From assembly GCA_011390415.1 (NCBI GenBank), contig JAABSL010000066.1, forward strand, positions 1 to 34,206: a DNA stretch of 34,206 bases. The letters run 5' to 3'. The notes under the pieces were generated by a model that did not search any database, was not told the DNA's origin, and worked only from the letters and a program-made list of their open reading frames with translations. Within the stretch, counting starts at the first letter, position 1; every line of letters starts with the position of its first letter. Positions 3,288 through 29,458 of the stretch are shown here, one piece after another. Source of the stretch: Desulfobacteraceae bacterium (GTDB taxonomy: Bacteria; Desulfobacterota; Desulfobacteria; Desulfobacterales; Desulfosalsimonadaceae). Both the position numbers and the translations under genes were made by a program.

Positions 3288-3413
3288 GATGCAGACGTTA
3301 TTTGGTGATAATGTCATTATTCGTCATTATGAAAAGCTTTTTACGATTGTGATCCCGATTCAGCATTCTCTGCGAGAGTCCTATTTTGAGCATTATATTG
3401 GCTTTCTTCTTTG

Positions 3414-4064
3414 TCAAAGGATCGGTTGGATATGGCATAAAAATCTTTCATGCACTTCGTCCAGCATCCGTTCCTTCAAGGCTGTTGGATTCTCATGCAT
3501 ATAATCGAGCAGCGTATTGTTGATCCCGGCAATAAATCCGTGCATCTGACTCCACATGGAAATCATGTGAAACCGGGCAGACGCTTCGGCCATGCCGTTA
3601 TCACCGGCGGCCGCCATGATGGCCTTGATAAAAATGTCCGACACCGTGAGTGCGGTTTCAAGCTCGGTCCGGGCTGCCGGTTCCATGGGGGTTCCCACGT
3701 AATCCTTAAATTTCGGCACATGCCAGGTGAACATGAGGTTGTAGATGTTGGCCTGTTCAAGGCCGAAATTCAGATATTCCCGGCCCATCTGTTTCAGCCG
3801 CGCCACCGGGTCCGGGTGATCGGAAAAGACTTTTTCAAACCGCTCATAGAGCGTTGAAAATCCCCGGGTTAAAATGGCAAGATACAGTTCATCCTTGTTT
3901 TGATAATAATTGTAAATGGTTTTGGCTGACACGCCCAGCCGGCTGCCCAGCCTGCGCATGGAAAATCCGTCAAAGCCCTGACGGTTCATCAGATCCAGGG
4001 CCTGTTCCAGGATTCTTTCCCTGATGGTTTCCACTTCTTCAGTCGTTTTTTTCGGTCGGGGCAT
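3414..4064 (-). CDS. TetR/AcrR family transcriptional regulator
   Basis: This 216-residue protein has an N-terminal TetR helix-turn-helix (about residues 14-60; FSMRRLGSRLGVSAKTIYNYY) and an all-helical ligand domain, with length typical of the family. It lies upstream of, and in the same direction as, the activase-SDR-glycyl-radical-enzyme operon, separated by 409 bp of repeat-rich DNA. It is therefore a candidate local regulator of that cluster. Two palindromes directly upstream of its own start (4086-4104 and 4102-4124) suggest autoregulation. The ligand is unknown. Confidence 0.9.
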   Translation of the reverse strand: MPRPKKTTEEVETIRERILEQALDLMNRQGFDGFSMRRLGSRLGVSAKTIYNYYQNKDELYLAILTRGFSTLYERFEKVFSDHPDPVARLKQMGREYLNFGLEQANIYNLMFTWHVPKFKDYVGTPMEPAARTELETALTVSDIFIKAIMAAAGDNGMAEASARFHMISMWSQMHGFIAGINNTLLDYMHENPTALKERMLDEVHERFLCHIQPIL

Positions 4065-15453: not shown

Positions 15454-16554
15454 TTAGAATTTATATTTCAGATCCACATGATACGTTTTGGGGTCCTGGT
15501 CAATGTCTCTTTCCTTGGCTTCATACAGATATGCAGTGGCGGCCAGTTCGCAGTTTTTGGTCAGTTTATATCCCAGGCCGATTTTGAATCCTTCAACATC
15601 CGTGGAACCCAGCGCGTCTCCCCAGTCAGCGTCCTTTAATGTCGGAATACAGGCATCCGCGCCAACACTGGCATAGTCAACGCCGATTTTAAATTTGGCG
15701 ATACTGGCGGAAACACCCACCAGGTAACCCATGTTCTCCTCTTCCGGATCAAGGTCGCCACCCTGAATGCTCTGGCCTTTTTCGCCTTCCGCGCCCATAT
15801 TATAAAATATCTGGGCATGGGGGGAAATTTTTGCCATGTCGGTTTTGATTTCAGCACCCAGGAACAGATCGATGATCTGGTAGCCGTAATCACTGTCCAG
15901 GGTGGTCGCGTCACCGTATGCGCTGATGAGTTCTTCGGCATCATGGTAGTTATAGAATGCCAGGGCAGCGGTGAACATATCCAGATTCGCACCCACCTGA
16001 ATGGCTTCCATCTGGGCGATGTCTTTGTCAACATAATAGACGTCATACCACCCGGCGGTGATGAAAATCGGTTTCAAATCAACCATACCGGTAAACCCCG
16101 CCGGCCGGACATCACCGTCCCACAGGGCCCAGGTGGTTTTAAACGGATTTTTCTGCTGGCCGGCAACAAATTTAAAATTGCTCAGATTGTGTTCTGAATA
16201 GGCGTAATCCAGACGGATGTCGCCGGTTTCGAAAAATGCGCCGTCCGACCAGGTGTCGTTGGTGGAGGTGGCATCAGAACCACCCGTAGCAAGCCCTGCG
16301 GCAATTTTCCAGTTTTCCGCCGGATTGGTCCATTTCATGCCCAGGCGAAAACGGGTTCTCATGCGATCCGTGGCATCCTCGCCGGATACATCCTTTTCCT
16401 TGTATTCATACCGGATTCTCAAGTCTCCCTTTAATTCCATGCTTTCGATGAAATCCTGGAGCACCAGGCTGGCGGAAGCCGTCATCGGCAGGAATAAGGT
16501 TGCGCCGATAAAACATGCAACGGTTAACAAACACACTTTGATTTTTTGTTTCAT
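15454..16554 (-). CDS. Outer-membrane porin, putative-porin (Porin_5-like) family
   Basis: This 366-residue protein has a signal peptide of about 29 residues (hydrophobic core then MTASAS). The mature part is rich in alternating beta-strand segments (GDLRIRYEYKEKD, DRMRTRFRLGMKW, VGVSASIAKFKIGVDYASVG) and ends in a terminal aromatic (VDLKYKF), as outer-membrane barrels do. The arrangement ELKGDLRIRYEY...RMRTRFRLG matches porins found in deltaproteobacteria. Upstream, at 16701-16722, lies a Pho-box-like site closely similar to one in the phoB-pstS intergenic region, so the porin may be induced by phosphate starvation. Selectivity for phosphate is inference. A strong terminator follows at 15358-15404. 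Confidence 0.85.
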   Translation of the reverse strand: MKQKIKVCLLTVACFIGATLFLPMTASASLVLQDFIESMELKGDLRIRYEYKEKDVSGEDATDRMRTRFRLGMKWTNPAENWKIAAGLATGGSDATSTNDTWSDGAFFETGDIRLDYAYSEHNLSNFKFVAGQQKNPFKTTWALWDGDVRPAGFTGMVDLKPIFITAGWYDVYYVDKDIAQMEAIQVGANLDMFTAALAFYNYHDAEELISAYGDATTLDSDYGYQIIDLFLGAEIKTDMAKISPHAQIFYNMGAEGEKGQSIQGGDLDPEEENMGYLVGVSASIAKFKIGVDYASVGADACIPTLKDADWGDALGSTDVEGFKIGLGYKLTKNCELAATAYLYEAKERDIDQDPKTYHVDLKYKF

Positions 16555-16700
16555 TTTTTTTCTCCTTGTTTAATCTTTAGTCAACAAAATGATTTTTTAC
16601 TTATAAGTCTGTCGCTGTAATTGTTCAGGTGAATTTAATACGGTAAAGTAGAGTCATTGTGTGAACGTATAATGTCAATTCTGTGAATAAAAAAAGAAGT

Positions 16701-16722
16701 CTGTGTTACATTTTGATGACAG
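16701..16722 (-). promoter_or_regulatory. Pho-box-like site upstream of the porin
   Basis: Read on the minus strand, this is CTGTCAT, spacer CAAA, then ATGTAAC. That is the 7-4-7 direct-repeat format of PhoB boxes, with a perfect first half. It agrees at 17 of 22 positions with 21936-21957 in the phoB/pstS intergenic region. It is about 150 bp upstream of the porin start. Confidence 0.6.
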
Positions 16723-16795
16723 GCCGTATTGAAAGACTTTGCGGGAAGTCTGGAATGTGACGATTCCAATCAGCGGCCAATGATGATTTATATCA

Positions 16796-16908
16796 AAGGG
16801 GCGAATGGCCTTCGCCCATCTTTGTCAAATGGCATTCGCCTATTGCGTTTCAACCACAAAAAGGCGTATCCCATAAAAAGGCGTATGTCATACGCCCCTA
16901 CGGGGTCG
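16796..16908. repeat. REP-like palindromes (GGGCGAATGGC / GGCGTATGTCATACGCC type)
   Basis: Several short inverted repeats occur in tandem: GGGCGAATGGCCTTCGCCC near 16799, GGCATTCGCC near 16830, and GGCGTATGTCATACGCC near 16881, followed by CCTAC. The form is that of dispersed intergenic REP sequences. Confidence 0.65.
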
Positions 16909-16983
16909 CAGTGGCCGAAACAATGATCAAGGCCGTCGTGAAGCGATGAAACGTTCAATTTCAATTCAGGAAAAATATAAAGG

Positions 16984-17718
16984 ATGGACAAAATTCAGAA
17001 CAGTGAAACAAACAACCTGATCCGGCTGCAGAAATTTCTCTCAGGTGCGGGGCTCTGTTCCCGGCGCAAGGGGGAAGAATATATAAAAGCCGGGCGGGTG
17101 GCGGTCAATGGTGAAATTGTTTCCCAGCCGGGGGTTCAGATTGACCCGGAAAAAGACCGGGTGACAGTGGATGGAAAAGCCGTCCGTGACGATCAGAAAC
17201 TGATTTATATCATGCTCAATAAACCGGCCGGATACATCACCAGCCGCAGTCACGGCAGCCGGAAAATCGTGTTTGATCTGGTCGATGTCGATCAGCGCTT
17301 AAATCCCGTGGGACGGCTGGATAAGGATTCCACCGGCCTGCTGCTGCTGACCAATGACGGAGAACTCCATAACCGGCTGATTCATCCGTCATTTGATCAC
17401 GAGAAAGAATACGAGGTCGAAACCGTAAAACCCGTCAGCGACAAGGCCCTTGAAAAAATGAGGTCCGGTATGGTGCTGAAAGATAAAAAAACCCGGCCGG
17501 CAAAAATTGACCGGGTAACGGAAAATCGATTTAAAATTACGTTAAAAGAAGGCCGTAAGCGCCAGATCCGCCGCATGGTGGAGCAAATCGATAACCGGGT
17601 GGTCAGCCTGCACCGGATCAGAATGTCCACGCTGATTTTGGGTGACCTGGAAAAAGGCAAGTGGCGCTATTTATCAAAAAAAGAAGTAAGCGCATTGCGC
17701 AAATCCTGCGGTATTTAG
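16984..17718 (+). CDS. rRNA pseudouridine synthase, RsuA/RluB/RluE/RluF family
   Basis: This 244-residue protein has an N-terminal S4 RNA-binding domain (about 12-60; RLQKFLSGAGLCSRRKGEEYI). The catalytic domain contains GRLDKDSTGLLLLTNDGEL with the conserved Asp, plus LNKPAGYITS and the KEGRKRQIRRMV motif typical of RsuA/RluB. It would isomerise a uridine in rRNA. The exact target (RluB position in 23S versus RsuA in 16S) cannot be fixed from sequence alone; RluB-type is my preference. The start has AAAGG immediately before the ATG and AGGA 13 bp upstream, a slightly unusual spacing. The gene stands alone. Confidence 0.93.
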   Translation: MDKIQNSETNNLIRLQKFLSGAGLCSRRKGEEYIKAGRVAVNGEIVSQPGVQIDPEKDRVTVDGKAVRDDQKLIYIMLNKPAGYITSRSHGSRKIVFDLVDVDQRLNPVGRLDKDSTGLLLLTNDGELHNRLIHPSFDHEKEYEVETVKPVSDKALEKMRSGMVLKDKKTRPAKIDRVTENRFKITLKEGRKRQIRRMVEQIDNRVVSLHRIRMSTLILGDLEKGKWRYLSKKEVSALRKSCGI

Positions 17719-17848: not shown

Positions 17849-18538
17849 TTATTTGTCAAAATCCACTTTCTGATGTTTGATATTAATGGCTTTGACAATA
17901 AACGCCACATGTTCTCCGATATTGGTTGCCAGATCCCCCACCCGTTCCAGGCATCGGGAAATAATAATGGTCTGAATGGACCGGCGGGTATTTAATATCC
18001 GTTTTTCAGCCCCCGGCGTACTTTGCACCATGGTATCGATCAGCGCCTGGAGCACTTCCAGAGTATATTTATCGGCAATATCATCCATTTGACGGATTCT
18101 TATGGCTTTCTGCGTGTCTTCTTCCACAAACGAAGAAATGGCCGCCGCCAGCATCTCCCCGGCAACATTGATCAATTGTTCCATTGCCGGCAGATGCGCA
18201 AGCGGGGGATGCTGGCATAAAAACAAGGTCCGTTCGGAAATATTTACTGCCTGATCGGCAATCCGTTCCAGTTCCTTGCTGATTTTAGTTGTGCCGAGGA
18301 TAAAACGCAGGTCCCGTGCCATGGGCTGTTCCAGAGCCAGCAGTTTTAAAACAATCTGGTCTATTTTGAGTTCCAGATCATTGATCTTTTTGTCTCCTTC
18401 AATGACGCGCCGTGCCCGGTCCTCGTCTCTTTTCAAGTAAGCCTGTGTCGATTCTTCAAAAGCCCGCCGGGTTGCCGCCGCCATCTCCAGCAGTGTCATT
18501 TTCAGATCGTCCATTTCTTTAATAAAATGACGTTCCAT
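17849..18538 (-). CDS. phoU: Phosphate signalling complex protein PhoU
   Basis: This 229-residue, all-helical protein has two PhoU repeats with the metal-binding-type motifs. The first half contains DLELKIDQIVLKLLALEQPMARDLRFIL and ELERIADQAVNISE. The second has the matching SRCLERVGDLATNIGEHVAFIVKA. PhoU links Pst transporter activity to inhibition of PhoR/PhoB signalling when phosphate is plentiful. It is last in the phoB-phoR-pstB-phoU unit, 29 bp after pstB, with a good AGGAG ribosome site, and is followed by a terminator. Confidence 0.96.
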   Translation of the reverse strand: MERHFIKEMDDLKMTLLEMAAATRRAFEESTQAYLKRDEDRARRVIEGDKKINDLELKIDQIVLKLLALEQPMARDLRFILGTTKISKELERIADQAVNISERTLFLCQHPPLAHLPAMEQLINVAGEMLAAAISSFVEEDTQKAIRIRQMDDIADKYTLEVLQALIDTMVQSTPGAEKRILNTRRSIQTIIISRCLERVGDLATNIGEHVAFIVKAINIKHQKVDFDK

Positions 18539-18567: not shown

Positions 18568-19329
18568 TTAGCCGAAGCGGCCGGTAATATAATCTTCTGT
18601 TTGCTTTAATGACGGGCGGGTAAACATGGTCTCCGTATCTCCGATTTCAATGAGTTTGCCCATGTAGAAAAATGCCGTGATATCCGATACCCGCGCCGCC
18701 TGCTGCATGCTGTGGGTCACAATAATAATGGTAAAATTTTTTTTCAGCTCATGAATCAGGTCTTCGATTTTCTGGGTGGCAATGGGGTCTAAAGCAGATG
18801 CCGGTTCATCCATTAACACCACATCCGGTTCCACCGCCAGGGCCCGTGCGATGCACAATCGCTGCTGTTGTCCGCCGGATAACCCCAGAGCGGAATCATT
18901 GATCCGGTCTTTGACTTCATCCCACAGGGCAGCCTGCTTTAAGCTGTTTTCAACGCTTTGCTTTAATATTTTTTTATCTCTGACGCCGTTCACGCGCAGT
19001 CCGTAAGCCACATTTTCAAAAATAGTCTTGGGAAACGGGTTGGGCTTTTGAAACACCATTCCCACCCGGCGTCGTAAGTTCACCACATCCACATTGGGTG
19101 CGTAAATGTCTTCGCCGTCAAGCGTGACGGATCCTTCCACACGGGTGCCGGGAATCAGGTCGTTCATGCGGTTCAAACATCTAAGATAAGTACTTTTTCC
19201 GCAACCGGAAGGGCCGATTAAGGCCGACACCTCATTTTTGTTTATTTCAAAGGAAATATCTTCAAGCGCTTTAAAGTCGCCGTAAAAGAAGTTTAGGTTT
19301 TTGGTTGAAAATTTTACTGTATTCGTCAT
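18568..19329 (-). CDS. pstB: Phosphate ABC transporter ATP-binding protein PstB
   Basis: This 253-residue ABC ATPase has Walker [10 protein letters not shown] (39-47), the Q-loop [15 protein letters not shown] diagnostic of PstB, the LSGGQQQRL signature and the [13 protein letters not shown] Walker B. It powers phosphate uptake through PstC and PstA. Unusually, it is not beside pstA: it sits in the opposite-strand operon between phoR and phoU, 20 bp after phoR, so Pst subunits come from two divergent transcripts. An AAAGGAT ribosome site precedes the ATG. Confidence 0.97.
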
Positions 19330-19349: not shown

Positions 19350-21164
19350 TTATAGGTTTTCCGCCTTGTTAAGTGCAATGAAAAAAACCGAACCCGTGGT
19401 TTTGTTGTCCGGGGGGCTTTTCAGCCAGATTTCGCCCCCCATGCCGGCAATGGCATTACGACAGATGGACAGTCCCAGGCCGGTGCCGCCGGACTCCCGG
19501 CTTCTTTCCCTGTCCACCCGGTAAAACCGCTCAAAAATTCTTTTTTGATACCGCTGAGGTATTCCGGCACCTTCATCCTGAATGCCGAAAATGTAGGAGT
19601 TTTTCTTATTTTGTTTATTTTGCCCGTCCTTACCCGCACCGCTGTCTTCATCTGCAAGAAATACCAGGATGGTGCTTTTCTCCGGACTATGGCGGATGGC
19701 GTTGTCCAGGATATTCCGGAAAACCTGTATCAGAGAATTTTCCTCAGCCCATACCAGCAGATGATCCGATAACTGATTGTCGATGCGGATCCCTTTTTCT
19801 TTGAGCATGGGCATGCAGGTCTCTTCCGCGGATTTGAAACAGGCGGTCGCATTGACGGTTTCCATTTCATGCCGCATGTGCCGGTTCTGCTGAAGTTTCG
19901 TCAATTCAAGCAGATCATTGACGATATTTGACATCTGATTGGCATTTCGAATAATGGTTTTAACAAAATGATCCGATGCTTCCGATGCCCTGAATTTTTC
20001 GTCCAAAAGGGTTTCCGCATACCCCTTGATAGAGGTCAGCGGTGTTCTGAGTTCATGAGATACATTGGCGACAAAGTCCTGTCGGACCTTTGCCAGCCTT
20101 ATCAATTCACTGATATCATGAAACACAACCACGGCGCCGCCGTCCGGAATTTTTACCAGATTGATTTCATATGTGGTGTCATCGTTTGTCGATACCTTGC
20201 ACTTAATTGCACCGTCTCCCGCCAGCACCTGGTCACAGGCAGCCTGGATTTCGGGATTTAAAAAAACTTCCATGGGCCGGCGGCCCAGGCAGGTGGGGAC
20301 ACACCGGGCAATCAGCGTCAATGCCTGGTTGATGGACTTTATTTTTCCATTTTTATCCAGCATCATCACCCCTTCGGCCATGCCTTCAAGCACGGCTTCC
20401 AGTTCCTGCTTTTGTTCGGTGATCTGGAAAATATTTTGCCGGATCTTATTTGACATGTCGTTGATACCGGCGGCCAGCCGGGTAAATTCAGGACCGGCTT
20501 CAATGTCTATTTGTTTGCCGAAATCCCCTTCACCGATGGCGGTTGTCGCTTCGATGACGTTTAGGATCGGTTTTTCCAGTCGTCGGGCCAGAAACACACT
20601 GAGAAATGTGAACAGTATGAAAATAAAGACCAGTATGCCCCAGAACCGGTTGTTGAAATAATCCAGCCGGGCTTCAACCGGGGATAGCGGGATGGCGATT
20701 CTGAGAGCACCGGACGGGACAGTGATAAGATTGACATTTTTGGCCGCATAAATCAGTTTACGGTCCAGGGTAATACTGTATCGGATGCTGGCACCTTGTC
20801 CGGCGCTTCTGGCGGTGATGATTTCTTCCCGGTCGGCATGGTTGTCCAGTGATTTGATTTTATCATAGGGGACATCGGAATCGGCAATCACTTTGCCGCC
20901 GGCGGCAATGATGGTAATGCGATAGTGAAGCTGTTCGCCCAAATTCTTGCACCATTGATCAAGAGCCCGGTTATTCTCGAAAGCAGGCTCTTTTTTCAGC
21001 ATCCAGTCAATAAACTGGAGCTGGGTAAATGCATTTTCCTTTGCTTCTTTGTAAATATCTTTTTCAAGGGTTTGAAAAATATAATATGCCGGAACGCACA
21101 AAGACAGGATGATAATAATTGAAAAAGACAGCATCAGCTGTGTTCTAAAACGCATGGATTTCAT
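19350..21164 (-). CDS. phoR: Phosphate regulon sensor histidine kinase PhoR
   Basis: The 604 residues are arranged as TM1 (about 10-30), a periplasmic/extracytoplasmic sensor (about 31-172), TM2 (about 174-193), HAMP (about 194-246), PAS (about 252-350), HisKA with His370 in VANVSHELRTP, and HATPase (about 470-600) with NILDNAI, DEGAGI and GTGLGLSI. The long form with a periplasmic domain is usual outside enteric bacteria. An Asn/Lys-rich insert (about 507-523) interrupts the ATPase domain. It starts 3 bp after the phoB stop, so coupling is tight. It would phosphorylate PhoB when phosphate is low. Confidence 0.94.
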   Translation of the reverse strand: MKSMRFRTQLMLSFSIIIILSLCVPAYYIFQTLEKDIYKEAKENAFTQLQFIDWMLKKEPAFENNRALDQWCKNLGEQLHYRITIIAAGGKVIADSDVPYDKIKSLDNHADREEIITARSAGQGASIRYSITLDRKLIYAAKNVNLITVPSGALRIAIPLSPVEARLDYFNNRFWGILVFIFILFTFLSVFLARRLEKPILNVIEATTAIGEGDFGKQIDIEAGPEFTRLAAGINDMSNKIRQNIFQITEQKQELEAVLEGMAEGVMMLDKNGKIKSINQALTLIARCVPTCLGRRPMEVFLNPEIQAACDQVLAGDGAIKCKVSTNDDTTYEINLVKIPDGGAVVVFHDISELIRLAKVRQDFVANVSHELRTPLTSIKGYAETLLDEKFRASEASDHFVKTIIRNANQMSNIVNDLLELTKLQQNRHMRHEMETVNATACFKSAEETCMPMLKEKGIRIDNQLSDHLLVWAEENSLIQVFRNILDNAIRHSPEKSTILVFLADEDSGAGKDGQNKQNKKNSYIFGIQDEGAGIPQRYQKRIFERFYRVDRERSRESGGTGLGLSICRNAIAGMGGEIWLKSPPDNKTTGSVFFIALNKAENL

Positions 21165-21167
21165 AAA

Positions 21168-21857
21168 CTATTCCTTACACCGATACCCGATGCCCCGCAC
21201 GGTTTCAACGGCATCCGCATATTCTTCTCCCAGTTTTTGTCTCAGCCGGCGGATATGCGTATCCACGGTTCTGGCATACCCGTCAAACTGATATCCCCAC
21301 ACACGGTCCAGCAGCTGATCCCGGGTCCGCACCCGGCCTTTGTTCTGTATCAGTTCCACCAGCAGTTTGAATTCCGTTACAGTCAGCGTAATTTCATTTT
21401 TCTCGATCCAAACCCGGTAACTGTCTAAATCAATCAGAAGATCTTTGTATGTTATTTTTGTTTCTTCCGGTTTCTCTGCCTCAAACCGCCGGAGGATCGC
21501 CCGTACGCGCAGGGTAAGTTCCCGGGGAGAAAAGGGTTTGACAATATAATCGTCTGCTCCCAGTTCCAGGCCGACGATCCGGTCCACTTCTTCGCCTTTG
21601 GCGGTGAGCATCACCACGGGAATGTTTTCCGTTTTCGGGTTCCGCTTTAATGCTTTGCAGATTTCCAGACCATCCATGCCCGGCAGCATAAGGTCTAAGA
21701 TGATCAGATCCGGCAGTTGTGTCATGGCCAGCTCAAGCCCTTTGATGCCGTTTTGTGCGGTCAGAATAGAAAACGCTTCCGCCCGCAAATGCCATTCGAT
21801 CAGGTGCAGAATGTCAGTCTCATCTTCAACAATTAAAATTGTTTTTGCTTTTGTCAT
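21168..21857 (-). CDS. phoB: Phosphate regulon response regulator PhoB
   Basis: This 229-residue protein has a receiver domain with acidic pocket Glu11/Asp12, phosphoacceptor Asp55 (IILDLMLPGMDG) and the Lys of the IVKPFSPREL segment. A winged-helix OmpR/PhoB DNA-binding domain follows (about 125-229), with RTRDQLLDRVWGY and RTVDTHIRRLRQKLG. Position beside phoR, pstB, phoU and pstSCA supports PhoB over other OmpR-type regulators. It should bind the Pho-box-like repeats in its own upstream region (21936-22000). Confidence 0.95.
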   Translation of the reverse strand: MTKAKTILIVEDETDILHLIEWHLRAEAFSILTAQNGIKGLELAMTQLPDLIILDLMLPGMDGLEICKALKRNPKTENIPVVMLTAKGEEVDRIVGLELGADDYIVKPFSPRELTLRVRAILRRFEAEKPEETKITYKDLLIDLDSYRVWIEKNEITLTVTEFKLLVELIQNKGRVRTRDQLLDRVWGYQFDGYARTVDTHIRRLRQKLGEEYADAVETVRGIGYRCKE

Positions 21858-21960: not shown

Positions 21961-22016
21961 ATGTCATTATATTTTCAGCGTTTTGTAACACAATCGTCAA
22001 ATTTGCAGATTATTAT
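21961..22016 (+). promoter_or_regulatory. Tandem Pho-box-like sites and -10 box for pstS
   Basis: Four 7-mers recur every 11 bp: ATGTCAT (21961), TTTTCAG (21972), TTGTAAC (21983) and TCGTCAA (21994). Ten bases after the last is TATTAT (22011-22016), the correct distance for the -10 of a PhoB-activated promoter. The second 7-mer is the weakest match. Confidence 0.6.
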
Positions 22017-22170
22017 CAATCATCTCTTGAAATAAAAAAAGCATTAAATCGATAAACGGTTTTTGTAATACAGAGTGATCGGCAAACAATATGCAATCCG
22101 GCATACGGCTGTCGGTCAGTTGTTAAAGAAACATAAATAGTATATTATAATTAAAAAGGAGAAAATGACA

Positions 22171-22989
22171 ATGAAGATCAATCTTTTAAAAGCAGTTACC
22201 GTATTTTTTTGTGTTTTCTGTCTGAGTTCTGCAGTCCTGGCTGAAAATCTGGAGATCAAGGGCTCCACCACTGTGCTCCCCATAGCCCAGAAAGCAGCGG
22301 AAGCGTTTATGAAAGTGCACCCGGATGTGAATATTTCGGTATCCGGCGGTGGTTCCGGCAACGGCATCAAAGCCATTATCGACGGCACCACGGACATTGC
22401 CGATTCGTCCCGTTTTATTAAAACCAAGGAAGTGGCGTTGGCCGTTGAAAAAGGCGTTTATCCGGTTCCCTTCGGCGTTGCCTATGACTGCATCGTTCCG
22501 GTGGTTCATCCGTCCAACCCGATCAGCAACCTGACCAGTGCCCAGCTCAAGGATATCTATATGGGCAAGATCAAAAACTGGAAAGAAGTCGGCGGAGAAG
22601 ACAAAGCAATTGTGGTGGTTTCCAGAGATACTTCTTCCGGCACCTATGAAGTGTGGGAATCCCTTGTCATGAAAAATGAAAGAGTGTTTCCCGGTGCCTT
22701 GCTTCAGGCATCCAATGGTGCGGTGGCCCAGTCCATTGCAAAAAATAAGTTTGCCATCGGCTATGTGGGACTGGCATATTTAAATGACGATCTTAGAACC
22801 CTCAAGGTGGACGGCAACGAAGCAACCATGGAAAACGCCCTGACCGGTGTTTATCCCATCAGCCGGGTGCTGTACATGTTTACCAAAGGATGGCCTGAGG
22901 GAACGACATTGCAGTTTATTAATTTTGTCATGCATCCGGAAAAAGGCCAGAAGATTGTGGCCGAGGCCGGGTATGTTCCGTTGTATTAA
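22171..22989 (+). CDS. pstS: Phosphate-binding periplasmic protein PstS
   Basis: The protein is about 272 residues with a signal peptide ending SSAVLA before ENLEIKG. The phosphate-binding loop motifs are present: KGSTTVLPIAQKAAE, SGGGSGNGIKAIIDG and SRDTSSGTYEVWE. The short PstS form (about 270 residues) is typical of deltaproteobacteria and Gram-positive bacteria. ATG 22165 and ATG 22171 are both in frame; the AAGGAG at 22156-22161 lies 3 bp from the first and 9 bp from the second, so the second is favoured. It delivers phosphate to PstC/PstA and leads the plus-strand unit under the Pho-box cluster. Confidence 0.95.
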   Translation: MKINLLKAVTVFFCVFCLSSAVLAENLEIKGSTTVLPIAQKAAEAFMKVHPDVNISVSGGGSGNGIKAIIDGTTDIADSSRFIKTKEVALAVEKGVYPVPFGVAYDCIVPVVHPSNPISNLTSAQLKDIYMGKIKNWKEVGGEDKAIVVVSRDTSSGTYEVWESLVMKNERVFPGALLQASNGAVAQSIAKNKFAIGYVGLAYLNDDLRTLKVDGNEATMENALTGVYPISRVLYMFTKGWPEGTTLQFINFVMHPEKGQKIVAEAGYVPLY

Positions 22990-23109: not shown

Positions 23110-24003
23110 ATGAGCACCAGACGTCAGATCAAAGCCAATATTATCCGGTACATTTTTTTTATATTTGCATTTGTCTCCATTACCATTCTCTGCATGATTT
23201 TATATTTTCTGGTCAGGGAAGGGGTGCCGGTCTTTGAACTGGTGTCGGTAAAAGATTTCCTTTTCGGCGATTACTGGTATCCCACATCAGACCCCCCGGA
23301 TTTCGGCATTTTCCCCCTGATCGCCGCATCCCTGCTGGTGACCTTGTGTTCCGCAGCCGTTGCCATTCCCCTGGGGGTGATGACCGCCATTTATCTTGCG
23401 GAAATCGCTTCCCATCGGGTCAAAGAAATTGCAAAACCCATGGTGGAGCTTCTGGCTTCTTTGCCGTCGGTGGTCATCGGCTTTTTCGGCATGGTGGTGG
23501 TGGCTCCGTTTTTACAGAATGTGTTTAATATCCCCACCGGTCTGAATTTGTTTAACGCGTCGCTGATGCTGGCATTTATGTCGGTGCCCACCATCTGCAC
23601 CATATCCGAAGATGCCATTGCCAGTGTGCCGGCAGAACTCAAGGAAGCTTCGCTGGCACTGGGGGCCACTCACTGGGAAAGCCTGGTCCGGGTGATCCTT
23701 CCGGCGTCATTGTCCGGGTTGAGTACGGCGGTTATTCTGGGAATGTCCCGGGCCATCGGAGAGACCATGGTGGTGTTGATGGTGGCCGGAGGGGCGGCCA
23801 TGGTGCCGTCCTCTATATTTGATCCGGTCCGGCCCATGCCGGCAAGCATTGCTGCGGAAATGGCGGAAGCCCCGTTCCGGGGAGATCATTATTATGCATT
23901 GTTTGCCACCGGCATGGTGTTGTTTGTTTTTACGCTGATTTTTAATTTTATCGCGGATTATCTTTCAAACAAACACAGGCAAGTCGGAGCCTCCACATTG
24001 TAG
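23110..24003 (+). CDS. pstC: Phosphate ABC transporter permease PstC
   Basis: This 297-residue integral membrane protein has about six helices. The cytoplasmic EAA-type loop is present (ELKEASLALGATHWESLVRVILPASLSG near 178-205), which docks to PstB. VELLASLPSVVIGFFGMVVV is typical of PstC. Its stop codon TAG (24001-24003) is contributed by a REP-like hairpin (24000-24022). It pairs with PstA to form the phosphate channel. The ribosome site is weak (AGGTCTTCC before the ATG). Confidence 0.95.
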   Translation: MSTRRQIKANIIRYIFFIFAFVSITILCMILYFLVREGVPVFELVSVKDFLFGDYWYPTSDPPDFGIFPLIAASLLVTLCSAAVAIPLGVMTAIYLAEIASHRVKEIAKPMVELLASLPSVVIGFFGMVVVAPFLQNVFNIPTGLNLFNASLMLAFMSVPTICTISEDAIASVPAELKEASLALGATHWESLVRVILPASLSGLSTAVILGMSRAIGETMVVLMVAGGAAMVPSSIFDPVRPMPASIAAEMAEAPFRGDHYYALFATGMVLFVFTLIFNFIADYLSNKHRQVGASTL

Positions 24004-24024: not shown

Positions 24025-24927
24025 ATGAAAAAGGATAAAAAATTGAGTCAATCCACCTTACAACTGGCCCAACACATCTCCGGACGGAGAAAATATTCCC
24101 AGTCCGTGATGTTTTATCTGTTCCGGTTTGCGGCAATTATCAATGCCCTGGCGTTGATGATTATTTTATTTTTCTTGATTAAAAACGGCTGGCGGGCCAT
24201 TAACTGGACCTTTCTAACCCAGCCCCCCATTGACTCCATGACCCGGGGCGGCATTTTTCCCTGCATTATCGGCACCGTCTATTTAAGCATCGGCGCCATG
24301 CTGGTGGCATTTCCGTTAGGGACCGCATCCGCGATTTACTTGAATGAATATGCCCGGCAGGGAGTGGTGCTGCGGATTATCCGTTTCGGCATCAACAACC
24401 TGGCCGGTGTGCCGTCAGTGGTGTTCGGCCTTTTTGGTCTTGCGCTGTTTGTCACATGGATGCAAATGGGGGTCAGTATCCTTGCCGGTGCTCTGACCCT
24501 CGGATTTTTAACCCTTCCGGTGATTATCGGGACCGCGGAAGAGGCGTTGCGGGCGGTTCCGGATACCTATCGTGAAGCATCATTGGGGCTGGGAGCCACC
24601 AAATGGCAGACCATATACCGGGTGGTGCTGCCGGCGGCCCTGCCGTCCATGCTCACCGGCGGGATTCTGGCACTAAGCCGGGCCGCGGGGGAAACCGCGG
24701 CTATCATGTTTACGGCCGCTGTTTTCTATACCAAAAAAGTGCCCACCTCCGTATTTGATCAGGTCATGGCGCTTCCCTACCATATTTATGTGCTGGCCAC
24801 CGCCGGCACGGACATTGAGCAAACCCGTCATCTGCAATACGGCACTGCGCTGGTTCTGATTATCCTGGTTCTGGGAATGAACCTGATTGCCATCGTCTAC
24901 CGCGCCAAATTGCGCAGAAACCGGTAA
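24025..24927 (+). CDS. pstA: Phosphate ABC transporter permease PstA
   Basis: This 300-residue membrane protein has about six helices and the EAA loop TYREASLGLGATKWQTIYRVVLPAALPS. NNLAGVPSVVFGLFGLALF matches PstA. No ribosome site precedes ATG 24025 because the REP-like hairpin occupies that place. An internal AAGGAT at 24031-24036 lies 6 bp before TTG 24043, which is a plausible alternative start giving a protein six residues shorter. It completes the pstSCA unit; its ATPase is encoded on the opposite strand. Confidence 0.94.
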   Translation: MKKDKKLSQSTLQLAQHISGRRKYSQSVMFYLFRFAAIINALALMIILFFLIKNGWRAINWTFLTQPPIDSMTRGGIFPCIIGTVYLSIGAMLVAFPLGTASAIYLNEYARQGVVLRIIRFGINNLAGVPSVVFGLFGLALFVTWMQMGVSILAGALTLGFLTLPVIIGTAEEALRAVPDTYREASLGLGATKWQTIYRVVLPAALPSMLTGGILALSRAAGETAAIMFTAAVFYTKKVPTSVFDQVMALPYHIYVLATAGTDIEQTRHLQYGTALVLIILVLGMNLIAIVYRAKLRRNR

Positions 24928-26611: not shown

Positions 26612-29095
26612 TTATGATGCGAACTTGAACAGCGATTCCTCTGTTTTTTTGCGGAATGAATCCGCCGGCGGTTCTGACTGATAAAGCTCCCAGGTTTTAT
26701 TGAACGCCGTTTCAAAGGACCGGTTTTCCATGTATCTTCGGGCGTTTTTCTTCATCTCGGCCAATCGCTGCGGAAATTCGCAGATGTTGAGTACCGCATT
26801 GATCATGGCCTGGTCATCATGGGCCGGGATAATCATGCCGGTGTCACCGTCAATCAGATTTTCCTGGGGCCCGCCGGAATCGGTCACGATCACGGGTATG
26901 CCCGATGCCTGGGCTTCTAAAACCACATTGCCGAAGGTGTCGGTGCTGGACGGAAATATGAACAGATCGCTGGATGCATAGGCTTTTACCAGATCGTCGC
27001 CCTCCAGATAGCCGGTGAACCGGGTGTTGGTGTGTTCAAGCGCTTTGGTCATTTCCCGGCGATAGGGGCCGTCGCCCACCACAATCAACTGCAAATCGGG
27101 CTTTATAAGACTCAGTTTGTTGTATGCCCGGCAGAGCACATCCAGGTTTTTTTCCTTGGATATGCGGCCCACATAAATCAGTTTGATGGAGTTTTTCGGT
27201 ATCTGGTAAGCAGATGTCCAGAAGCCGTTTCTGCTTGCCGGGTGAAACCGGTTGATGTCGATGCCCCGGGGATATAATCGTATTTTTGACTGCCGGATGC
27301 CTTTGTTGACCAGCTCGACACCCGTGGCTTTTGACGGAACATATACGATGTCGAGCTGATTGTAGAACCAGACCATCAGTTTCCAGGCCAGTTCCTCCAT
27401 GGCGTTGTCCCCGGTCAGTTCGGCAGCATATTGCGGAAACGCGGTGTGATAGGTTCCGTAGATGGGAATATCCAGGATGCGGGAAATCGCCAGGGCTGCC
27501 AGGCCGACGGGGCCGGGGGTGGAGGCCATGATATGGGTGAAATTGTTTTCATAGCAGTATTCGAGCATTTTCAGCACCGGCGGATAATGCAGTTTGATCC
27601 CGGGATATTCGGGAATTTCAAACGTGCCGATGGGATCGAAGTTTTGAGCCCCTTCCAGGCTGTGATTCGGCGAACAGGTGATCAGGGACAGGTTTTTGCC
27701 GGTTTTTCTGGCAATTTTCAAATGCATGCGAAGGGTCAGGGCCACTCCGTTGGTTTCGTGCAGGGTGTCCGTAAAAATGGCGATATTTCCGGTTTTTCTG
27801 GCCGGCCGGGTTTCTTTGCAAACAAACTGCTCACGGCAGGATTCCGCAAATGCCCGGTCTTTGGTAAACAGCCGGAACGCCATGAAATAGGGCAGCAGGA
27901 GCGTGTATACGGAACCGGCGGACCCGATGGTCTGGAAAATGTTAAACAGTTTGGCCTTGGACAGGCTGTCTAAGGTCGTGTCGGCAAAACTTTTCATGAC
28001 TTCTTCGGACACGTCGTTAACAAATGCAAACCAGTCTTCTTCTTTCTCCCAGGCTTCTTTGCCGGTGGTGTCTTTTAATATTTTCTGAAAATTGATATTT
28101 TTGCAAATGGCTATCCGGGCCTTTTCTTCAATTAACTCAAACAGATCATCTGTTTTTGAATGAAACATGGAAAGGGTCGGCTTTCGGGAAATGAGATAAT
28201 CGGAAAGCCGGGTTAAAATCCCCCGGTGTTCATCATGGGTGGTCAGGGCACAGTCCACAAATTTTAACAGGGTATTTTTGTGAATATACCGGTCAAAGTA
28301 AAATTTGGATTTGTAAAATTGATACGCAATGCCGTATAGGTTGTGGGCCATGGTCTTGGGGGTGGCCGCTTTGCCATAAACTTCCGCCTTTGCGTTTAAG
28401 ATGCCGCTAAAAAATTCTTCTTTGGTGGTTGCTCCCGGCACAAAGGTATGCATGCGGGCGATGTTTAACGAGGAATGGTCGTCCGAACCGCCGGTGATAT
28501 TTTTTTCCCACGGCCGGATGCCTGCGGGGGTGATATCATGTTTGTTGGCCAGACGTTCCATATCGCTTTGGGTCAGAGACGTTAAAACGGTTTCCAGAAT
28601 TTGATTCTGATGGGCGTCTCGGGACCCGTTGAGTTCGAAATTGGTAAACAGCAGCAGCATTTTTTCAAAATAGTCCATGCTGAGCTTGTGGTTTAAGTCA
28701 AAAAGGGGATGGGCCAGCACATGAAAAATCTTCTCCCGGTTTAAGTAACTTGTCAGATCATAGATGTTTTTTCGGAGATGATGGATTTCAATGTGCTGGT
28801 TTTCGGTGATATCATGGGTCAGAACATGGAGTTTGCACTGGTTTTCCGGAAAGTAGGCGGTGACCTCCTCGCTGATAAACGTATCCGGCAGGTGGGCGAT
28901 CTCCAGGCTGCCGTTGATGTTGTTGTGATCCGTGATGGTCACCAGATCCATGCCGCGGGCTTTGGCAATTTCATAGAGTTTCCGCTGAGAAGTAAAGCTC
29001 TCCGGACAGTCGATTTTCTGTAAAATCCACTGGGACGGCCGGGTGGATGATTTTGAATGCACATGCAGATCCACTTTCATGCCTGATGGGTTCAT
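26612..29095 (-). CDS. PHP-domain / GT4 glycosyltransferase fusion protein
   Basis: The 827 residues contain three parts. Residues 1-240 form a PHP phosphoesterase-like domain with metal-ligand motifs DLHVHSKSS (9-17), ITDHNN and GGSDDHSS. About 250-435 is a helical middle region I cannot assign. About 441-800 is a GT-B, GT4-type glycosyltransferase with IAIFTDTLHETNGVALTL at its start, YVGRISKEKNLDVL, and STDTFGNVVLEAQASGIPV, a form resembling lipid glycosyltransferases such as MgtA or SqdX. The likely role is transfer of a sugar from a nucleotide sugar to a lipid or small acceptor, with hydrolytic PHP chemistry on the same chain. A good AAGGAG ribosome site precedes ATG 29095. No partner gene is adjacent. 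Confidence 0.88.
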   Translation of the reverse strand: MNPSGMKVDLHVHSKSSTRPSQWILQKIDCPESFTSQRKLYEIAKARGMDLVTITDHNNINGSLEIAHLPDTFISEEVTAYFPENQCKLHVLTHDITENQHIEIHHLRKNIYDLTSYLNREKIFHVLAHPLFDLNHKLSMDYFEKMLLLFTNFELNGSRDAHQNQILETVLTSLTQSDMERLANKHDITPAGIRPWEKNITGGSDDHSSLNIARMHTFVPGATTKEEFFSGILNAKAEVYGKAATPKTMAHNLYGIAYQFYKSKFYFDRYIHKNTLLKFVDCALTTHDEHRGILTRLSDYLISRKPTLSMFHSKTDDLFELIEEKARIAICKNINFQKILKDTTGKEAWEKEEDWFAFVNDVSEEVMKSFADTTLDSLSKAKLFNIFQTIGSAGSVYTLLLPYFMAFRLFTKDRAFAESCREQFVCKETRPARKTGNIAIFTDTLHETNGVALTLRMHLKIARKTGKNLSLITCSPNHSLEGAQNFDPIGTFEIPEYPGIKLHYPPVLKMLEYCYENNFTHIMASTPGPVGLAALAISRILDIPIYGTYHTAFPQYAAELTGDNAMEELAWKLMVWFYNQLDIVYVPSKATGVELVNKGIRQSKIRLYPRGIDINRFHPASRNGFWTSAYQIPKNSIKLIYVGRISKEKNLDVLCRAYNKLSLIKPDLQLIVVGDGPYRREMTKALEHTNTRFTGYLEGDDLVKAYASSDLFIFPSSTDTFGNVVLEAQASGIPVIVTDSGGPQENLIDGDTGMIIPAHDDQAMINAVLNICEFPQRLAEMKKNARRYMENRSFETAFNKTWELYQSEPPADSFRKKTEESLFKFAS

Positions 29096-29458
29096 ACGTT
29101 GCTCCTTGCAGCCTGATTGGCTGTTTTCTTATTTTTAGGTTTTAATCAGGCTAAAGGTAGGGATTAATTTTGACACGATTGTGTCAAACCGGTGGTTTGA
29201 TAAGGGAATTTGCGTGACGGATGGGTGACGAGAAAGGCGGAAGGAATGGGATTTTTCCGTGAGGTGTTTCAAAATAACCTGCGGGACCCGCAAGCCATAA
29301 GCCAAGTCGGTGATAAGGGTTTCAGGTGTCGGGTGTCAGATACCAGAATCGCCTTTCCTGACACCAGAATACTAATACCTGCTGCTGGAAAACCGCAATC
29401 CTTAGCCCCACCTCTCCATTTTTTTCTTTTGCGCAGGAATTGAGGGATAAGGCACTAA
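29096..29458. other. 363-bp gene-free stretch with palindromes and repeats
   Basis: Near the PHP-GT start there is a 9-bp inverted repeat (29110-29118 with 29144-29152) just upstream of the ribosome site, and TTTGACACGATTGTGTCAAA at 29169-29188. About 29320-29400 contains degenerate GGTGTCGGGTGTCAG/CTGACACC repeats typical of dispersed intergenic sequence. No gene is supported. Confidence 0.55.
29169..29188. promoter_or_regulatory. Perfect 8-bp-arm palindrome upstream of the PHP-GT gene
   Basis: TTTGACAC and GTGTCAAA flank GATT, 74 bp before the PHP-GT ATG. On the minus strand it includes TTGACA. It is well placed for an operator overlapping a promoter, but no cognate regulator is adjacent. 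Confidence 0.4.

Follow-up and report, generated by a model that had tools for sequence, protein, structure and literature searches.

Does the porin gene that adjoins the pho cluster of a Desulfobacteraceae bacterium belong to the phosphate-starvation regulon, and if so, is its product a dedicated phosphate channel or a general porin? PhoB-controlled porins are an established kind, represented by PhoE, OprP and OprO, and PhoE of Escherichia coli is a PhoB-controlled general porin. OprP and OprO of Pseudomonas aeruginosa are outer-membrane channels expressed under phosphate deficiency (PMC3831634), and KpnO of Klebsiella pneumoniae is a further porin regulated by PhoBR (PMC3405095). We analysed a stretch of 34,206 nucleotides, hereafter the window, for which the original prediction had placed the porin in the phosphate-starvation regulon on account of a Pho-box-like site upstream of it. 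The features on which the argument turns are the following.

15454..16554 (−): porin gene, 366 aa, Porin_5 family (PF16930), predicted 16-stranded barrel; from Pfam and AlphaFold2
16562..16567 (−): AAGGAG, likely ribosome-binding site of the porin gene; read from the sequence
16645..16650 (−): −10-like hexamer TACTTT, 10 nt past the last unit of the array and ~90 bp ahead of the porin ATG
16661..16722 (−): six-unit Pho-box array with 4-bp spacers; scored at 70.2 by an array matrix trained without the window
16701..16722 (−): the Pho-box-like site noticed first, which covers units 1-2 and 4 bp more; 16705-16722 within it scores 12.84 with the matrix
16984..17718 (+): divergent rRNA pseudouridine synthase gene, a conserved neighbour; from family match and synteny
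17849..18538 (−): phoU; PF01895, E 2.5e-40
18568..19329 (−): pstB-like ABC ATPase gene; PF00005, named from its position in the pho cluster
19350..21164 (−): phoR-like histidine kinase gene; best NCBIfam models PnpS, WalK and PhoR, each under its curated cut-off
21168..21857 (−): phoB-like response regulator gene; product shares 46% identity with E. coli PhoB and retains the HIRRLR segment
21929..21957 (−): Pho-box array ahead of phoB, three units; matrix scores 19.6 and 17.5, held out
21961..22000 (+): Pho-box array ahead of pstS, four units, followed by TATTAT at 22011-22016; held-out matrix score 25.4
22165..22989 (+): pstS; TIGR02136, 281.9 bits (cut-off 206.6)
23110..24003 (+): pstC-like permease gene; PF00528, named from its position after pstS
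24025..24927 (+): pstA-like permease gene; PF00528, named from its position after pstC

The best NCBIfam model for the phoB-like product is PhoB, at 260.5 bits and thus under the cut-off of 296.2.

The array ahead of the porin gene

On the forward strand, positions 16701-16722 read CTGTGTTACATTTTGATGACAG and are identical at 17 of 22 positions to CTGTGTGACATTTTGGTTACGA of the phoB/pstS region. A recount bore out this number, and shuffled versions of the 22-mer reached it in that region in three of 2000 cases. The description of the site as a 7-4-7 repeat with a perfect CTGTCAT half was likewise correct (CTGTCAT-CAAA-ATGTAAC on the porin strand), although only two of six in-register units had been noticed. 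Read from 16722 to 16661, the full array is CTGTCAT caaa ATGTAAC acag ACTTCTT tttt TATTCAC agaa TTGACAT tata CGTTCAC, that is, six 7-bp units at 11-bp spacing, of which 16701-16722 forms the distal end. Unit 3 (ACTTCTT) is degenerate, and units 3-4 depart from the phoB/pstS consensus. The boxes are placed as for activation, with the last unit 10 nt from TACTTT, and a hexamer starting with TA stands at equal spacing in all nine aligned porin arrays. The pstS promoter of the window has the same layout (four units, 10 nt, TATTAT), and the same fixed spacing at E. coli phoA and pstS leads to TATAGT and TATTTT, which we take to be the true −10 elements of these genes.

Whether such a site stands out from chance depends on how it is sought. 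A loose consensus matches the window three times against 1.98 expected, which is not significant; a tighter pattern matches twice at no more than one mismatch against 0.29 expected, but was composed after the site was known and is thus weak evidence. Because the loose consensus was not significant, we turned to a more telling test, an 18-bp matrix for which 17 relatives, but not the window, supplied 34 phoB/pstS intergenic sites, these being deemed PhoB sites by their position between phoB and pstS. By this matrix the porin site (12.84) takes fifth place among window sites, after pstS (25.4), phoB (19.6 and 17.5) and a glycosyltransferase promoter (15.7); it thus scores lower than the phoB and pstS sites, and only five of 68,378 window positions, itself included, score 12.83 or more. 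Across 453 kb of related DNA, in which phoB/pstS and porin upstream regions were masked, 11 of 933,588 positions (masked ones counted in the denominator) reach 12.84. This rate corresponds to ~0.0097 expected hits of at least 12.84 per 430-bp upstream region, and some of the background hits are probably real boxes. Applied to E. coli, the matrix scores the phoA and pstS boxes at 14.8 and 15.9, and is low on the phoE (2.0) and phoB (4.1) sites.

At the scale of the 3.4-Mb genome, the consensus YGTMAYNNNNNYGTMA matches 31 times, against 33 for a reversed-pattern control. Thirty of these matches were scored, one (C342, without a locus) being left aside; the four highest scores belong to the pstS, phoB, glycosyltransferase and porin sites, and each of these four lies outside any open frame of at least 100 codons. 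A matrix of whole arrays, trained on eight porin arrays from other genomes, gives 70.2 for the window porin, 14.2 for the glycosyltransferase promoter and at best −4.4 elsewhere in the window, while on 5 Mb of Markov sequence of upstream composition its maximum is 14.0, with 137 positions above 0. A further pattern finds four matches in the genome (control: one), two of them the porin and glycosyltransferase promoters; it was composed from these two promoters and therefore shows rarity only.

Conservation across homologues and the gene served

Sixty genomes were searched, that of the window among them; 15 gave a porin match and 12 hold clear homologues, 17 genes in total, a figure that excludes a remnant in G021 and the weak hits of G048, G052 and G003:C57. 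A family-wide search, which covered 36 genomes, added none to those already analysed. The porin is linked to the pho cluster in nine of the 12 genomes, and in G015 and G006 linkage was not judgeable, given short contigs or porins at contig ends. The search of orthologous porin promoters for the motif, set beforehand as the test on which the prediction could fail, found the six-unit array at nine of 16 homologues with readable upstream DNA, the window included (L064, with no upstream DNA, is excluded, and L063 has only 249 bp). The array stands at seven of nine pho-linked homologues (window included) and at two of seven unlinked ones, being absent from the other five. Membership of the porin in the phosphate-starvation regulon, as originally predicted, thus gains from both the recurrence of the array elsewhere and its absence from most of the readable homologues outside the pho locus.

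The nine arrays score 29.9-75.5 when each is left out of training. Two pho-linked homologues (L066, L067) carry boxes that are arranged differently, at 20.6 on the opposite strand and 10.9 and 13.3 on the porin strand. At a third, L058, no 18-mer exceeds 3.5 on either strand, and an array placed by hand scores 40.2 leave-one-out. In ungapped comparison the arrays are 54-80% identical to that of the window, whereas gapped alignment of the flanks gives 12-42% over 80 bp on the upstream side and 24-53% over 60 bp on the downstream side. Within the nine arrays, mean column identity is 0.65 in units and 0.60 in spacers, so that conservation is not sharply centred on the repeats. In the five genomes that possess two homologues, the array stands at exactly one of the pair in G001, G005 and G008 and at both in G007, and G006 lacks it at one, the other being unreadable. 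On the porin tree, presence of the box changes four times (L058 scored as lacking), which means that gain and loss have occurred; furthermore, orthologous promoters share ancestry and are thus not independent trials. Between the pseudouridine synthase gene and phoU, G007 also carries, at 4560-6521 of L058, a Cache/HAMP sensor-like gene with a box of 15.8 ahead of it and a second PstS-like gene.

The array lies in the intergenic region 16555-16983, which the porin gene shares with the divergent pseudouridine synthase gene (16984-17718), and could in principle serve the latter. Partial porin-type arrays do indeed occur beside the synthase gene in two genomes without a porin match, at L072 6594-6669 (G010; score 25.8) and L073 1530-1605 (G019; score 29.1), although these are likely promoter relics. 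The array is, however, directional, with its −10-like hexamer on the porin side. It is retained in G008, where the porin has a glycosyltransferase gene as its neighbour, and at L059, where the porin adjoins an efflux operon, and at L060 other genes intervene between porin and synthase. In G008 the porin and glycosyltransferase genes are divergent, and one array is directed at each of them (81.0 in training, 67.6 left out; and 30.9). Judged by sequence and gene order, then, the arrays track the porin and not the pseudouridine synthase gene, and we regard service to the synthase as highly improbable.

Two observations belong beside these loci. The intergenic region shared by the divergent porin and glycosyltransferase orthologues of G008 spans L056 2378-2791, and the first 12 kb of that contig showed no gene of the pho cluster. 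In G021, a porin remnant (a 103-codon open frame; L069 8934-9410) lies beside the pseudouridine synthase gene, and two strong Pho boxes (19.3 and 18.7) persist there.

OmpR-family regulators bind similar direct repeats, and units 3-4 are unlike the phoB/pstS consensus, so another member of that family might use the 11-bp repeats in place of PhoB. Against this stands the matrix, which was derived from phoB/pstS sites alone and yet puts the porin site fifth in the window, and which also detects the phoA and pstS boxes of E. coli. The box of Desulfovibrio vulgaris PhoB (DVU1083), determined by DAP-chip as the direct repeat (c/t)GT(n)AC, points the same way, its unit fitting unit 2 of the porin array and unit 1 save for the last base (PMC3333781). 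That motif resembles the array of the window in being a direct repeat in a sulfate reducer, but consists of a 6-bp repeat with a 4-bp spacer, found at 14 of 30 targets, whereas the units here are 7 bp long (PMC3333781). We thus consider another regulator improbable. A functionless chance resemblance could appeal to the simple consensus scans, near chance in the window and not above control in the genome. It has to contend with the rank given by the held-out matrix, an array conserved amid more diverged flanks, the −10 geometry and the contrast between paralogues, and is scarcely credible.

Altogether, membership of the porin in the Pho regulon is very likely on the sequence evidence, and we are confident, if short of certain, that its promoter is a PhoB-activated promoter of the sigma-70 type. 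Because that promoter carries a long, conserved array of the phosphate-starvation type, the porin is probably made when phosphate is scarce. We propose that under phosphate limitation PhoR would phosphorylate PhoB, as in the known pathway, and that PhoB would bind head-to-tail on the 11-bp units ahead of the porin, units 1-2 providing a strong distal pair, the middle units weaker sites and units 5-6 a proximal pair. With the last unit 10 nt from the −10 hexamer, a spacing as at E. coli phoA and pstS, bound PhoB would replace the −35 contacts, and more of the 16-strand, general-type porin would be made. The porin might in turn furnish PstS with phosphate or phosphate esters in the periplasm.

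Phosphate channel or general porin

The porin matches PF16930 with E 2.7e-13 and 49.7 bits (cut-off 22), its sole Pfam match at E of 0.001 or less, with the best stretch spanning residues 61-180 only. All 17 homologues match Porin_5 at E of 1 or less, six of them matching Porin_4 too, and neither PF07396 nor PF00267 is among the ten Pfam families listed for them at that threshold. The porin is therefore, as predicted, of another family than PhoE and OprP. It resembles E. coli PhoE in having a 16-strand barrel and a Pho-box promoter, but differs in that its homologues (n=17) have no listed PF00267 match and that no pho or pst gene stands alongside phoE within 5 kb, whereas the window porin adjoins the pho cluster. 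From OprP and OprO, which are PF07396 proteins, it differs in that the same 17 homologues have no listed match to that family. A search of PDB sequences with the porin profile returned nothing credible (best E 0.34), and a scan of viral contigs found no relatives.

The AlphaFold2 model (mean pLDDT 78.1, pTM 0.74) has 16 strands. Compared with known structures (Foldseek, VIA-align 2), it is closest to OmpM1 (Z 24.9, rmsd 2.7 over 282 residues), followed by OmpF (Z ~20), 1pho, which we take to be the PhoE structure (Z 19.8, rmsd 3.5 over 281 residues, 10% identity in the structural alignment), and OprP (2o4v; Z 19.7, rmsd 3.8 over 285 residues). With Z values within 1 of each other counted as a tie, PhoE, OprP and OmpF are tied, and the predicted fold hence says nothing on specificity. 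The original prediction had spoken of an independent solution to outer-membrane phosphate entry; this is supported in part, the family being a different one but the predicted fold that of an ordinary general-porin barrel.

These data bear on two readings of what a PhoB-controlled Porin_5 porin would do. In the first, the porin is a general or replacement porin of envelope remodelling, without phosphate preference. The predicted barrel agrees with such a role, as do the invariant residues, which homologues share whether or not they have the array, and the presence of the same array at a glycosyltransferase gene that perhaps acts in lipid remodelling. Moreover, a PF07396 match over the cut-off, in some cases partial, is present in ten of the 12 genomes with a Porin_5 homologue, and another phosphate route may therefore exist. 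The genomic link of the porin to phoU-pstB-phoR-phoB-pstSCA speaks against this reading, and so, as a weak point, does a net positive inward wall with a row of arginines. By a crude strand-parity count made without coordinates, the inward wall of the lumen has a net charge of +8, with Arg at 46, 48, 64, 66, 68, 70 and 114. The inward Arg row is also found in homologues without the array, and net inward charge is 0 to +11 in array-bearing homologues and +1 to +8 in array-less ones; the ranges overlap, so the parity count is weak and proves no selectivity. A general role thus appears quite possible, though we would stop a little short of calling it probable.

In the second reading, one Desulfobacterales lineage would have made a Porin_5 protein its dedicated phosphate channel: the protein would have been recruited to the pho locus under a six-unit PhoB promoter and made anion-selective through its own Arg row, a paralogue outside the Pho regulon would serve other solutes, and at least one relative (G020) would use an OprP-type porin instead. 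We consider this full scenario unlikely; were it true, a phosphate porin would have evolved convergently from a different family. The contrast with OprP-type porins rests on the single genome G020, where, at L094, ~650 bp separate an OprP-family porin gene from a pstS-like gene encoded on the other strand, and Pho boxes point both ways (20.7 and 16.9). Among the 12 PF07396 matches with loci, strong boxes occur only at L094 and no site of the remaining 11 exceeds 7.5, but the starts of these genes were taken as the longest frame and their upstream regions may thus be misplaced.

In G012, an OprP-family porin gene (L060 1918-3267; PF07396, E 6.7e-73) stands directly upstream of the Porin_5 gene, and no Pho box was found ahead of its longest frame. 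For a partial PF07396 hit near pstA in G013, the best site scores 5.1 and is not convincing as a box.

In searches of a body of literature with few subscription papers, none of the matches listed describes a PhoB-controlled Porin_5 porin. Neither the PhoB target study of D. vulgaris (PMC3333781) nor the phosphate-limitation fitness study of D. alaskensis (PMC5193443) uses the word "porin" in its main text; both concern another genus. The genome paper of D. phosphitoxidans describes a phosphate-selective porin with an orthologue in no other sulfate-reducer genome then public (PMC4046663).

A glycosyltransferase promoter of the same design

A second array of this kind lies elsewhere in the window.

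26612-29095 (−): GT4 glycosyltransferase gene, 827 aa, GT4 domain C-terminal; from domain match
29170..29231 (−): second six-unit array of the same architecture, ahead of the glycosyltransferase gene, with the −10-like hexamer TACCTT at 29154-29159

Eleven of 18 glycosyltransferase orthologues, the window included, have a same-strand array scoring above 0 within 400 bp, and seven do not; the values for G013 and G035 are identical, and three N-terminally cut loci (L142, L151 and L158) were left unscored. No NCBIfam model is over its cut-off for the glycosyltransferase among the matches listed (best 25). Motifs visible on inspection suggested a PHP-type N-terminus, for which Pfam gave no confirmation at E of 0.1 or less.

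In G021 (L069 1-3346), a DUF3419 gene (E 2e-106) and then a methyltransferase gene come after the end of the glycosyltransferase orthologue, all on one strand; these two genes may possibly act in betaine-lipid synthesis. A strong Pho box (22.8) stands at 3329 (+), after the methyltransferase gene and ahead of an open frame at 3988.

D. alaskensis forms glycolipids under phosphate limitation via the glycosyltransferase Agt (PMC5193443). By analogy, the glycosyltransferase of the window may be a candidate glycolipid synthase of the phosphate-starvation response.

In summary, the route of phosphate through the outer membrane in sulfate reducers has been charted only sparsely, and the locus described here provides a concrete candidate for it. 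The array is a promoter element of defined geometry that can be used to find further members of the Pho regulon in this group, among them a glycosyltransferase that may remodel lipids.
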